DNA from: a virus
Length of the DNA stretch: 30,543 nucleotides
Virus record (IMG/VR): IMGVR_UViG_3300022693_000780
Location: 1-30,543 of that record
Reading direction: 5' to 3' (one strand)
The notes below the pieces were generated by a model. The model was not told the DNA's origin. It searched no databases and saw nothing but the letters and a program-made list of their open reading frames with translations. A program made the translations under genes and the position numbers. Shown here one piece after another: positions 21,665 through 30,496 of this stretch (positions within the stretch are counted from its first letter, which is position 1; each line of letters opens with the position of its first letter).

Positions 21665-22199
21665 AGAGATTTTCCTGAAAATTAGATTTGAGGCGATAAG
21701 TGCTCAAATCAACCTCTTTTATGTTTTCTCCTAATTCTTTTTTTAAAATATTAATTGGAACGATATGGCCCCATGTTTCGTTTGCTTGTGTATATTTCTT
21801 TTGGAGCACAAGAGGGTATTTTTTTAAGTTGCCATCCGTGAAAGACCATTCTTTTAATGCTTTTAAATTCATAAAATAAAATTTCCAAGAGTCGATAAAC
21901 CCATAAATTATTTTATCTGCCTGAGAATGGTCAAGCCATCCGCGTCTAAATAAATGTAAATTACTCCAAATCTCTAAAAATAAATTTCCCGTGGTTTTTG
22001 ATTCCACTTTCATTTCTATGCAAAATTGTGCGGCTTTTGGGGTCGTTATAATAAAATCTCCAAACACAATTTGCCATTCAGGTCTATCCGCTCTCCAAAT
22101 AATTTGCTGGATCTCATAACCCTGCAATTTAAAATAATTAATGACAACGGGAGAAGCTTGTTGTTCAATTTTGCTTGCAATCACAAAAGAATTACTCAT
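21654..22199 (-). CDS. PD-(D/E)XK nuclease-like protein coupled to the methyltransferase
   Basis: 181 aa. The segment 'VFGDFIITTPKAAQFCIEMK' (Asp 48, Glu 62, Lys 64) fits the D-x(13)-ExK spacing of PD-(D/E)XK nucleases, and is followed by 'TGNLFLEIWSN', 'GWLDHSQADKIIYGF', the usual strand and helix of that fold. Its ATG overlaps the stop of the MT-A70 gene (ATGA). It could be a recombination or packaging nuclease or act with the neighbouring methyltransferase. The fold call is by eye and unverified. Confidence 0.5.
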   Translation of the reverse strand: MSNSFVIASKIEQQASPVVINYFKLQGYEIQQIIWRADRPEWQIVFGDFIITTPKAAQFCIEMKVESKTTGNLFLEIWSNLHLFRRGWLDHSQADKIIYGFIDSWKFYFMNLKALKEWSFTDGNLKKYPLVLQKKYTQANETWGHIVPINILKKELGENIKEVDLSTYRLKSNFQENLYEQ

Positions 22200-23182
22200 A
22201 GAAGGATATCCTTATTAAAAAGGGTTTCCGCAATCTCATTACCCCACACAGTCCAATTGTGCGCCGTTTCTCGGGCAAACAATTCAAGATAAGGGCCAGG
22301 GCTCACCTTTTCAATAATCTCCCTAACTACGTGAGGCTTTTTGCTGTGCTGGGTACGTGGGACATTTATCCAACTCATTTGAGAGCGGTCTAAAAATGTC
22401 TGTTTGCCCCGAACTCCTAGCATTAAGATTTCATGTGAAACCCTCCAATAATTGCCAATCCCCATTTGAGGCTTTGTCCAAATATAAATCCCCTTATATT
22501 CAAATCCCCAGGCCTCTAAAATATCCCTGCAATCAAACAGAAAGGCATTTGTGGTCCAAATATGAAGGTGTGACTTCTCTTCAGCCAGTTCCTTTATAGG
22601 GAGATCTATAATTTCAGGAGTCGTAAGGGTGGGATAATGATTATCTGTTGCGGCGCGGGTTCCCTGATTTCCATATTTCCAAGGGGGGTCGGCATAAATT
22701 GCACCGAACTTTTCACCGCTTTCTAATAATTCCTGAAGGGTCTTAACAGCATCGGTTTTTTGAATGACTTCGGAGGCTCCGGAGCAATTAATCCTCAACC
22801 TTAATTCCTTAGTGGACAAACCCTCATTTTCCGCTATATCAAGAAACCTTTCTTGCAATTCAGGGTTTAATTTAGCTATCTCATAATGATGGCTCCATGA
22901 TAAAACCGGACGCCGGCGTCCGAATTCAATACTCTGACTGACTCGCTTCAGATGTCTTAAAACATCATATTCATAATCAGTGGCTTCGAGGGCTTGGCTA
23001 TACATTTCCCCAAATTTACGCTCACCAAAATTTAGCCAGTCCCCTACCCACCATTGGATTCTGTGATCTATTGCTTGCAGGCCAGCACCTATTTTTTCCC
23101 ATTGTTCATAGGAAATTCCTTCTGGTAAATGAAGGCCATCTTTTTTGAATATGTCGGTATCAAGATATAAGGCTGTTTTCAT
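22196..23182 (-). CDS. MT-A70 family adenine methyltransferase
   Basis: 328 aa from ATG 23182, which has 'AAAGGAAG' just upstream; a frame extending to 23224 would overlap the previous gene further. Residues about 1-135 are a helical N-terminal domain (DIFKKDGLHLPEGISYEQWE, EFGRRRPVLSWSHHYEIAKL). The MT-A70 domain follows with catalytic DPPW (165-168), 'NHYPTLTTPEI', 'SHEILMLGVRG', 'QHSKKP' and the SAM-binding 'PYLELFARE' near the end. These enzymes make N6-methyladenine in DNA; in phages they typically protect against host restriction or mark DNA for regulation. Confidence 0.85.
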   Translation of the reverse strand: MKTALYLDTDIFKKDGLHLPEGISYEQWEKIGAGLQAIDHRIQWWVGDWLNFGERKFGEMYSQALEATDYEYDVLRHLKRVSQSIEFGRRRPVLSWSHHYEIAKLNPELQERFLDIAENEGLSTKELRLRINCSGASEVIQKTDAVKTLQELLESGEKFGAIYADPPWKYGNQGTRAATDNHYPTLTTPEIIDLPIKELAEEKSHLHIWTTNAFLFDCRDILEAWGFEYKGIYIWTKPQMGIGNYWRVSHEILMLGVRGKQTFLDRSQMSWINVPRTQHSKKPHVVREIIEKVSPGPYLELFARETAHNWTVWGNEIAETLFNKDILL

Positions 23183-23327
23183 TTTCTTCCTTTTTCTCCA
23201 AACATTTCGGGCAAGTGGTATCATCCCATTTTTCAGTGGTCACAGTGGGATACTCAACGCCGCACTCAACCTCTGAAATCTGCATTTTCGCGGGTGGTTC
23301 GTCTAGTTTTTTATGGATCTTACGCAT
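23160..23327 (-). CDS. Small CxxC protein beside attP
   Basis: 55 aa from ATG 23327 (a 'GGGGACAGAAT' leader fits); a longer frame from TTG 23351 would run through the integrase arm repeats and is less likely. Sequence MRKIHKKLDEPPAKMQISEV, then 'KWDDTTCPKCLEKKEENENS'. The 'TCPKCL' with upstream Cys resembles the protein at 19893-20090, a probable half zinc site. It overlaps the methyltransferase start by 22 bp. Role unknown; Xis-like function is conceivable from its position next to attP but no HTH is seen. Confidence 0.55.
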   Translation of the reverse strand: MRKIHKKLDEPPAKMQISEVECGVEYPTVTTEKWDDTTCPKCLEKKEENENSLIS

Positions 23328-27504: not shown

Positions 27505-27672
27505 TTAGCCTCCAGGCAAAATATGGGTTGACATATCCGTATAGATATGAGACAAAAAAAAGGCCACACGGCTGAGATTTCTGGAGAGAAATACCGTGTG
27601 GCCTTCATTTGAAGCTAGGGTGCTGGTTTCCCAACTCCTGTTGCTTTTTTTATTTGAATTAAATAATCTCAT
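27505..27672 (-). CDS. Possible 55-aa leader gene of the early operon
   Basis: Frame MRLFNSNKKSNRSWETSTLA ... ending STHILPGG, from ATG 27672 with a clean 'GGAGAG' 7 nt upstream, about 25 nt after the likely transcription start. Its stop falls between the Shine-Dalgarno and start of the next gene. A strong intrinsic terminator lies inside it, so it may act as a regulatory leader and not as a functional protein. The sequence is not like a known family. Confidence 0.4.
   Translation of the reverse strand: MRLFNSNKKSNRSWETSTLASNEGHTVFLSRNLSRVAFFLSHIYTDMSTHILPGG
27552..27605 (-). terminator. Strong intrinsic terminator or attenuator in the early leader
   Basis: Minus-strand AAGGCCACACGG (27605-27594) pairs with CCGTGTGGCCTT (27571-27560), followed by a run of eight T. 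The loop contains a second stem ATTTCT-CTCC-AGAAAT (27592-27577), so a CTCC tetraloop tops the structure. Transcripts from the promoter at 27702-27730 would stop here after about 145 nt unless read through. Confidence 0.75.
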
Positions 27673-27701
27673 TGAATTTCTCTCCGTAAAACTTAATCTT
27701 C

Positions 27702-27730
27702 AATATAAGCCGATTCGGATTGCCAGTCAA
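27702..27730 (-). promoter_or_regulatory. Leftward early promoter with operator-like palindrome
   Basis: Minus-strand TTGACT (27730-27725), 17-bp spacer, TATATT (27707-27702). The spacer carries CCGATTCGG (27710-27718), a 9-bp inverted repeat that is a good repressor operator candidate. Located opposite the repressor gene start, as in lambda-like control regions. Confidence 0.6.
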
Positions 27731-27777
27731 GCGAATTCAGCTTTTTAATTGAAAATAACTCATGGAGGATGAAAATA

Positions 27778-28230
27778 GTGGTTACTGGAGGCAGTATATC
27801 TAACAGAATCAAAGATTTGAGGGAAGAAATAGGGATGAATCAGAAGGAATTTGCAGAGATTTTAGGACATTTCAGCCCAGATCACCTAGCAAAGATGGAG
27901 CGCGGGGATATAAAGGAGCCTAAATATTCCCATTTAATAGCCATAGGCAAATATTGTGGCGTTTCGACCGATTACCTGCTCACAGGCAAGGAATTCCAGC
28001 ATTCTGGGACTGCTACCCATCAGAATACAAATATGCAAACCGTAGCCGCTAAGGAGGCCATAAACCACCTCAATAATTGTGCCAAATCAATCAAGAAACT
28101 GGATTCTACAGTCGTTCTCGGTATTCAGTATTTCGAGAATCAAATTAAGAAACTTGACCGCGATCCTGAGATTGAAAATGCACTCGGAATGGTAAGCACC
28201 CAATTGACGGAAAGGTTGGTGCATAATTGA
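27778..28230 (+). CDS. cI-like XRE-family repressor
   Basis: 150 aa from GTG 27778, which leaves 9 nt after 'GGAGG' (27764-27768); ATG 27769 abuts that site and is less likely, though it is the conventional choice. The HTH (about residues 8-65) is of XRE type: 'RIKDLREEIGMNQKEFAEIL', 'HLAKMERGDIKEPKYSHLIA', 'YCGVSTDYLLTG'. The C-terminal half is helical without a LexA-type protease, so it is probably not RecA-cleavable. It faces the leftward early promoter and likely keeps it off in lysogens. Confidence 0.75.
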   Translation: MVTGGSISNRIKDLREEIGMNQKEFAEILGHFSPDHLAKMERGDIKEPKYSHLIAIGKYCGVSTDYLLTGKEFQHSGTATHQNTNMQTVAAKEAINHLNNCAKSIKKLDSTVVLGIQYFENQIKKLDRDPEIENALGMVSTQLTERLVHN

Positions 28231-28730: not shown

Positions 28731-28865
28731 ATGAACCCCGAAGATTTTTATAATGCTAAACGCAAATCCCTGTTCTGGGTAGATATGATTTTCTATCTGA
28801 TCCTGTGTTTTTTTCTAGCATTAGGCGTGACTATTGTTTATTGGATTCTTAAATTGGCGAATTAA
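28731..28865 (+). CDS. 44-aa single-helix membrane peptide
   Basis: MNPEDFYNAKRKSLFWVDMI followed by a hydrophobic stretch (FYLILCFFLALGVTIVYWIL) and a short end. The N-terminus is short and polar. It lies between the coiled-coil gene and the LuxR-type gene and its stop overlaps the latter's ATG (TAATG). Possibly a membrane anchor or immunity peptide; unproven. Confidence 0.6.
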   Translation: MNPEDFYNAKRKSLFWVDMIFYLILCFFLALGVTIVYWILKLAN

Positions 28866-29089
28866 TGGCACCTCCTATACAGTTGCTTACTTCAGCGGAA
28901 GTGATTTTAACGGAACGCGAATTAGAGATTTATATTGGTTTAGGGGAAGGGAAAAGCCCCAAGGAGCTTGGCGCGGAATTGTTTATAAGTCCTAAAACTA
29001 TATCATCTCATAGATGTAATATTATGGAAAAGATGGGATTTAAAAATATTTACCAATTAATGCATCACGCAATAAAATCTAAGGAGTAA
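28865..29089 (+). CDS. Orphan LuxR-type HTH protein
   Basis: 74 aa that is little more than a GerE/LuxR DNA-binding domain: 'LTERELEIYIGLGEGKSPKE', 'LGAELFISPKTISSHRCNIM', 'EKMGFKNIYQLMHHAI'. There is no receiver or autoinducer domain. Stand-alone domains of this type can activate transcription. It precedes the peptide and collagen-like genes in the same direction, so they may be its targets. The target site is not known. Confidence 0.8.
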   Translation: MAPPIQLLTSAEVILTERELEIYIGLGEGKSPKELGAELFISPKTISSHRCNIMEKMGFKNIYQLMHHAIKSKE

Positions 29090-29278: not shown

Positions 29279-29548
29279 ATGAAAAAATTAATTATTTTAA
29301 TAATTTCGTTGACTTTAGCTTTTGCCACTGTTGGTTGCCAAGGTGACGATGGAGAACCGGGTAAAAGTGGAATTGATGGCATTGTTGGTCCTAGTGGTCC
29401 CACTGGCAGTGATGGGTCACCTGGCAGTGATGGGTCACCTGGAAACACTGGCGGAATTGGGCCTCGTGGACACCAAGGGGAAACTGGAGAACTAGAAGCT
29501 TGTGGTGCTGATGAACATAGAGTAGCCGGAACTTGTGTACCTGTTTAA
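29279..29548 (+). CDS. Collagen-like lipoprotein
   Basis: 89 aa. Signal peptide II (MKKLIILIISLTLAFATVGC) with the lipidated Cys at 20. Seventeen G-x-y triplets follow (residues 22-72: GDDGEPGKSGIDGIVGPSGP...), then 'CGADEHRVAGTCVPV' with two further Cys that may bond. A membrane-anchored short collagen-like spacer exposed at the cell surface or in the periplasm. 'GAGGAG' precedes the ATG. Paired with the secreted collagen-like protein downstream, it may be its partner; this is inference. Confidence 0.75.
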   Translation: MKKLIILIISLTLAFATVGCQGDDGEPGKSGIDGIVGPSGPTGSDGSPGSDGSPGNTGGIGPRGHQGETGELEACGADEHRVAGTCVPV

Positions 29549-29569
29549 CTAACCAAGGAGATTTAAGAA

Positions 29570-30496
29570 ATGAAAAGAACTATATTAATTTATTCTTTGT
29601 TTATATTGTCATTTTTGGTCGTTGTACCACAAGCATTTGCTGCTCATTACCCTGCCATTAATTTTGCGAGCCAAGTGTCTTACAAAACCTCAGCTGAAGG
29701 AGAACCCCCTACATTTGTGGATGCTTTCGATATTAATGGGAGGTATCTCTTTTTAATTAAAAACAGTCAAAAGGTTATTCCAATAGTTAAACTTGGTGAG
29801 ACAGTTCTAACCATTCTTTATTCAGGGATGATAGCTGATTCCACCACTGATCAACAACAAGTCATTGTGCAGATGCCATCTCCGATTATCAGTGGAAGTT
29901 ATAATATTGAGGTAAACAATGGAGATCGCCTCGGAGGTTTTATTATCACACTAGGGATGGTTGGCCCGACAGGACCAATAGGACCATCAGGAGGAGAGAC
30001 AGGACCAACAGGAGAGACAGGAGCAGCAGGAGAGACAGGAGCAGCAGGAGAGACAGGAGCAGCAGGAACCAATGGCACAAATGGCACAAATGGAACTAAT
30101 GGAACTAATGGAAGTGATGGAAGTGATGGTGCTACTGGTGCCAATGGCACAAATGGAACTAATGGTGCTGACGGGTCAGACGGTGCTATCGGAGCAACAG
30201 GGCCAGCAGGCAATACAACCACAAAAGCCTTTGTAAACTTTAATGGCGCAGACACACCTGTCATAAGAGCGCAATCTGGTATTTCCACTATTACACGAGT
30301 GTCTGCAGGTGAATACACGATTACCTTTGCCAACTCGTTTGCTAATATTAACTATGTGATGACAGGGAATGCCAGTAATGGGATTGTGTTTATTAGAACA
30401 GTTAGAAGAGATAGTATTACTATTTACATTTTAGACACAGAAGGGCGATATGTTAACCCAATGCGGGTTATGCTGCAATTTATCAGCAATAATTAA
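29570..30496 (+). CDS. Secreted IPT-like/collagen/phage-fibre-domain protein
   Basis: 308 aa. Type I signal peptide (MKRTILIYSLFILSFLVVVP; cleavage likely after AFA, residue 24). Residues about 27-128 look like an IPT/TIG-type beta-sandwich (AFDINGRYLFLI, PIVKLGETVLTILYSG, GSYNIEVNNG). Residues 132-215 are collagen triplets (three, an interruption GGET, then 23, mainly GTN, GET, GAA, GSD). The C-terminal ~90 residues (KAFVNFNGADTPVIRAQSGI ... ISTITRVSAGEYTITFA) are the domain that ends many phage tail fibres. It is probably exported in the lysogen, unlike a tail fibre. Confidence 0.75.
   Translation: MKRTILIYSLFILSFLVVVPQAFAAHYPAINFASQVSYKTSAEGEPPTFVDAFDINGRYLFLIKNSQKVIPIVKLGETVLTILYSGMIADSTTDQQQVIVQMPSPIISGSYNIEVNNGDRLGGFIITLGMVGPTGPIGPSGGETGPTGETGAAGETGAAGETGAAGTNGTNGTNGTNGTNGSDGSDGATGANGTNGTNGADGSDGAIGATGPAGNTTTKAFVNFNGADTPVIRAQSGISTITRVSAGEYTITFANSFANINYVMTGNASNGIVFIRTVRRDSITIYILDTEGRYVNPMRVMLQFISNN
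29993..30190 (+). repeat. In-frame collagen tandem repeats
   Basis: Three copies of an 18-bp unit (GGAGAGACAGGAGCAGCA, about 30011-30064) and a run of 9-bp AATGGCACA/AATGGAACT-type units (about 30070-30115). All keep the reading frame, so length changes by slippage would vary collagen length without breaking the gene. Confidence 0.7.

Follow-up and report, generated by a model that had tools for sequence, protein, structure and literature searches.

In the leader of a temperate phage's putative lytic operon, the loop of a predicted intrinsic terminator carries an exact complement of the leader's own ribosome-binding site, and such an exact match of 10-11 nt was found in 4/4 related leaders even though the sequences themselves differ. 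We consider this comparative evidence (four phages, an exact complement in each, differing sequences) decisive for the observation itself, and the pairing of loop and site is, on comparative grounds, almost certainly a real control switch. That the leader is a translation-coupled attenuator which heads the lytic operon and is regulated by its own terminated product is a reading for and against which we see the balance as about equal. The comparison set consisted of the window (i.e., the whole virus record IMGVR_UViG_3300022693_000780, 30,543 bases, positions 1 to 30,543) and of three viral records (L002, L004 and L007; three samples), which were recovered via the 87-aa protein encoded just past the leader, giving four related sequences. 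The elements of the leader and its flanking genes in the window are as follows.

27769 to 28230, plus strand: Xre/CI-type repressor gene, divergent from the leader (matches to PHROG transcriptional repressors).
27730 to 27702, minus strand: predicted sigma-70-like promoter of the early/lytic operon, TTGACT-17-TATATT (10 of 12 consensus matches).
27685 to 27676, minus strand: ribosome-binding-site element GGAGAGAAAT, the target of the antisense loop (from the sequence).
27672 to 27505, minus strand: leader frame of 55 codons (55 aa), with its ATG at 27672, spanning the terminator (open reading frame).
27646 to 27612, minus strand: middle hairpin H1 with a GAAA tetraloop, AAGC...GGGAAACC...GCTT (conserved in relatives).
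27605 to 27554, minus strand: predicted intrinsic terminator with a 12-bp stem, a 22-nt apical region and eight T (folding, stem covariation).
27592 to 27583, minus strand: antisense loop ATTTCTCTCC, exact complement of 27676-27685 (from the sequence).
27592 to 27577, minus strand: inner 6-bp stem ATTTCT/AGAAAT, masking the antisense element in part (predicted fold).
27501 to 27238, minus strand: first operon gene past the leader, 87 aa, with no assigned function (open reading frame).

The terminator stem is formed by AAGGCCACACGG and CCGTGTGGCCTT (27605-27594 with 27571-27560), the eight-T tract ends at 27554, and the apical region TATTTCTCTCCAGAAATCTCAG includes ATTTCTCTCC; unmasking of the antisense element has a predicted cost of approx. 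4 kcal/mol. Folding predicts the terminator hairpin within the full leader (z = -4.1 and -5.1 in the two folds), together with H1, and none of 200 shuffled sequences folded as well as the leader. A preliminary description of this DNA had reported a 12-bp terminator with eight T inside a 55-codon frame, a hairpin that was thus recovered by folding of the full leader, as well as the 10-nt exact complement between loop (27592-27583) and site (27685-27676), which we verified; all of its coordinates for the minus-strand elements proved correct on re-check.

Judging from the gene content downstream and from the divergent repressor gene, the leader is the opening segment of the lytic operon of a temperate phage. 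The minus-strand genes past the leader encode the 87-aa protein, an Erf-type annealing protein, an integrase, a replication or primosomal protein and an endolysin, and a P22-like head module (portal, scaffold, major head, terminase) is also located downstream on the same strand; from this layout, termination in the leader would be expected to silence the operon. Relatives of the 87-aa protein share 55-75% identity, and the protein matched neither a PHROG nor a Pfam family. Relatives of the repressor are present in L003, L004 and L007, and the -10 region of the promoter is retained in L002 and L004. The contig ends at L002:1 and L003:1, which come from one sample, flank the gap between promoter and repressor, and these two records are possibly two parts of one virus.

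Other genes of the window include, on the repressor side, a 74-aa protein that consists of a LuxR-type helix-turn-helix alone (28865-29089, plus strand) and, likewise on this side, two small frames that begin with signal- or lipoprotein-like sequences and have collagen-like repeats and matches to tail-fibre PHROGs (29279-30496, plus strand), which may encode lysogenic-conversion or surface proteins; L007 has similar frames. A 342-aa protein encoded at 22196-23224 (minus strand) has an LmbU-like DNA-binding N-terminal part (under the NCBIfam cut-off) and a C-terminal part that resembles a DNA-methyltransferase.

The site and loop elements are GGGAGAAAAG and CTTTTCTCCC in L002, TGCGAGAAAAG and CTTTTCTCGCA in L004, and TGCAGAGAGAG and CTCTCTCTGCA in L007, the match being exact in each. 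When the elements of the four leaders were aligned, 40/40 cells were paired, with changes on both sides in 7/10 pairs and with no one-sided changes, no broken pairs and no G-U pairs; in the control, partners shifted by 1-3 columns paired in 45-72.5% of cells. As the elements were placed in register by hand, from where they lie ahead of the start codon and within the loop, the covariation count leans on this placement, whereas the finding of an exact complement inside each sequence is independent of it. The terminator stem covaries among the relatives too. The layout is likewise retained, i.e., the site element lies 3-5 nt upstream of the start codon in all four leaders, the antisense element always lies at the 5' edge of the terminator loop and, in every genome, 93-94 nt downstream of the site, and the distance from the start codon to the U-tract (about 118 nt) is nearly fixed. 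Each 10-mer occurs in exactly two copies, in opposite orientations, per whole record in all four records, and the 10-mers of L002, L004 and L007 were not found in the records of other relatives searched. The three relatives were also checked for a terminator kept with its complementarity lost, which the preliminary description had named as evidence against its proposal, and each of them retained both. As exact matches are kept with changes on both sides in 4/4 leaders, we regard it as secure, at the level of sequence comparison, that the pairing between loop and start site is under selection and is kept by compensatory change.

Against unrelated DNA, a complement of at least 10 nt at random places of the same geometry had a probability of about 4e-4 per locus, and shuffling of the loop or the site of the window gave P values of 0.00025-0.0088 for the match. 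These random places were used since a scan of unrelated DNA for large-loop terminators yielded 17 hairpins, too few for a null distribution. No relatives were found among INPHARED phages, plasmids and GTDB genomes, and searches with the leader peptide and with the exact terminator sequence gave no matches; one weak candidate, L100 (a 43-residue match within a 758-aa frame, E = 7e-4; 395 genomes), was taken as chance.

The middle hairpin H1 is also conserved, as GGGAAACC is invariant in all four leaders and 3/7 stem pairs show changes on both sides; since the codon frame through H1 differs in L007, H1 is kept as RNA, possibly as a pause or processing element. The DNA pattern of H1 had a single match in viral contigs (L010), which lies in coding sequence and is false, and 88 matches in genomes, with the leader architecture in 0/88; L078, a match to this pattern, consists of repetitive sequence and has no terminator.

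Frame 0 stays open across the whole terminator, U-tract included, in 4/4 leaders and the remaining two frames are closed in 4/4. As the probability of an open frame by chance is about 0.3 per leader, this finding supports translation of the leader modestly. The register of the frame relative to the hairpin varies, with GCC TTT at the tract in the window and L007 and CCT TTT in L002 and L004, and the window and L002 are separated by compensating indels. The preliminary description had proposed translation-linked attenuation, and a frame that spans the terminator in 4/4 leaders is consistent with such attenuation. In L004 the leader frame runs in phase past the terminator into the 87-aa gene as one fused frame (L004:1277-1696, plus strand). 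An in-frame ATG was also observed within the antisense target in L004 (L004:1259-1277) and L007 (L007:3820-3835), and since this ATG sits inside the element, pairing in these two leaders would cover either start.

Comparison of each loop with each site found longest exact complements of 10, 10, 11 and 11 nt for a loop and its own site and of 4-8 nt for cross pairs. Net pairing energies, which include the cost of opening both partners, were -6.3, -6.7, -8.5 and -12.2 kcal/mol for the own sites, the best in the row of each loop; most cross pairs were predicted at -3 kcal/mol or weaker, with the exception of possible cross-reaction between the window and L007 (predicted -5.2 and -6.5 kcal/mol). 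In these models, the specificity pattern is that expected of lock-and-key immunity types, and as a pattern among four sequences it cannot prove selection for divergence. Fast change of an otherwise strictly matched pair is what phage-specific immunity would select.

The mechanism that we infer, from promoter and terminator activity and leader translation to the influence of translation on termination, action in trans and biological role, would begin with a transcript from the lytic promoter that exposes the ribosome-binding site first. A ribosome close behind RNA polymerase would occupy the 5' side of the terminator stem and so allow read-through into the operon, an effect inferred here and established for pyrBI; if no ribosome follows, transcription would stop at about 27554 and a leader RNA of approx. 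140 nt would be released, with the antisense of the ribosome-binding site displayed in its loop. Once free, this RNA could pair in trans with new leaders, blocking their translation and favouring the terminator. Termination would be the default, with coupled translation giving partial read-through, and the scheme would provide a negative feedback that becomes stronger as phage genomes increase in number, and possibly immunity against phages sharing the 10-mer. Closely following ribosomes are known to prevent the formation of intrinsic terminator hairpins, as at pyrBI (PMC5021804, PMC4824070). In E. coli, ribosomes poorly repress terminators that lie less than about 100 nt into the coding region (PMC4824070), and the terminator stem begins 64-69 nt past the start codon in the four leaders. 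As the stem is this near to the start of the frame, read-through by coupling may be weak unless the polymerase pauses, for which H1 is a candidate. The divergent repressor may silence the promoter in the lysogen, which would limit immunity in trans.

The preliminary description had instead proposed a self-contained cis switch, in which the loop pairs with the site of its own molecule and thereby chooses between translation with read-through and termination. The layout makes the complementarity intramolecular and the pairs covary, as this proposal would have it, and low RNA levels, which favour cis over trans pairing, would act in the same direction. The difficulty is one of timing. Counted along the leader, the last position of the antisense element is 113 and that of the U-tract is 142, and approx. 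14 nt of transcript are held within RNA polymerase, so that the loop would be free only about 15 nt ahead of release; as translation initiation takes 1-2 s (PMC4824070), a block of translation in cis would come too late for the same polymerase. A terminated leader from an earlier round would have time to act, pairing as the new site emerges. The complementarity and its compensatory changes are thus real, whereas self-contained action in cis is doubtful and we consider the cis switch unlikely.

We also considered that the loop may fold onto the ribosome-binding site after termination, so that the released leader is not translated. As no stop codon interrupts the frame before the U-tract ends in 4/4 leaders, a terminated leader would be a non-stop message, and such self-silencing would meet no timing problem; however, it leaves unexplained both the frame that spans the terminator and the fast change of the pair among close relatives, and we judge it rather improbable. 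Overall, trans action by terminated leaders, or a role after termination, fits these data better than a cis switch, and we favour the former.

An explanation at the level of DNA would be that the two elements are inverted operators for the repressor, or for another DNA-binding protein, with shared binding causing the covariation. The repressor gene adjoins the leader, and strict identity without G-U pairs would also be expected of DNA sites. However, the element is non-palindromic, each genome has exactly two copies with none by the promoter, and these copies always coincide with the site ahead of the start codon and with the terminator loop. Moreover, the recognition helices of L004 and L007 are closely similar (HQTKISQTEAG and HQTQISEVEAG) with different elements, and the elements of L002 and L004 are nearly identical; the L002 part of this comparison is indirect, as the L002 record lacks the repressor, which L003 from the same sample probably carries. 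The repressor-operator explanation is therefore disfavoured and, in our view, very improbable. There is hardly any likelihood that the terminated leader is instead an activating RNA that remodels the read-through leader and switches its translation on, as pairing covers the ribosome-binding site in 4/4 leaders and should inhibit; the precedent for such activation is the prophage RNA IsrK (PMC4825925). That the match arose by chance can be rejected with near certainty, as the shuffles, the random-place probability (about 4e-4 per locus) and covariation without a mismatch at four loci of differing sequence stand against it, even if a purine-rich site would match a pyrimidine-rich loop more often than average.

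No Rfam family reached its gathering threshold in the window, and a search of three leaders at E values up to 10 did not list the C4 antisense family. Matches to Atu_C4, a Rhizobiales family distinct from C4 of P1/P7 (24 bits, threshold 80), and to suhB (far under threshold) resemble generic terminator matches and were rejected. The statement in the preliminary description that the switch could not be matched to a named phage system was nevertheless too strong, as its logic resembles that of C4 of P1/P7, of the CI RNA of P4 and of IsrK of Gifsy-1. By analogy, the proposed logic resembles P1/P7 C4 and P4 CI RNA joined to a terminator-in-frame of the pyrBI type, and is identical to none of them.

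In P1/P7 (immI: c4, icd, ant), the antisense shares a transcript with its target, which is the ribosome-binding region of a short leading frame, the translation of this frame gates the downstream operon, and short complementary stretches set the immunity specificity; C4 lies upstream of its target, pairs through two short stretches and is released from a precursor by processing. C4 acts in trans to repress the synthesis of Ant (PMC8546580). As in P1/P7, the antisense described here shares a transcript with its target, a ribosome-binding site that precedes a small frame (4/4), but it is one contiguous stretch of 10-11 nt, located 93-94 nt downstream and carried by the terminator loop. Similarly, in P4 (seqA/CI/seqC) the antisense is encoded in the leader and paired with leader sequence; according to PMC4825925, this pairing prematurely terminates the lytic operon. 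In P4, however, two targets flank CI, which is made by processing of an untranslated transcript, whereas each record here has one target, with none on the other side of the antisense element, and an intrinsic terminator doubles as the antisense carrier. The IsrK RNA of Gifsy-1 is a terminated short RNA that acts in trans, via a small frame, on the read-through mRNA from the same promoter (PMC4825925). Short terminated and read-through RNAs from one promoter are also proposed here, but IsrK activates translation and belongs to a different locus, whereas pairing here should repress. As in E. coli pyrBI (pyrL), an intrinsic terminator lies within a leader frame, which here extends through the terminator in 4/4 leaders; the pyrBI attenuator senses UTP and is not known to carry a loop complementary to its ribosome-binding site.

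Tentatively, and at less than an even chance, the terminated leader may be a self-produced, trans-acting immunity and gene-dose RNA beside the CI-type repressor, with 10-11 nt of the terminator loop as key and the ribosome-binding site of the leader as lock, each phage type having its own pair. RNA-based phage immunity is known from a few enterobacterial elements (P1/P7, P4, N15). If this reading is true, the use of one hairpin both as terminator and as complement of the start site in the same leader would be a new arrangement, and the leader RNA of resident or co-infecting genomes would shut off the lytic operon in any phage that shares the key. This would represent a separate, compact design, in which one hairpin is both terminator and antisense and the lock-and-key pair differs among relatives, carried by phages that have P22-like head genes and fall outside the collection of annotated phages that was searched. 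Heteroimmunity set by RNA and the sensing of infection dose would then become testable on a leader of approx. 150 nt.
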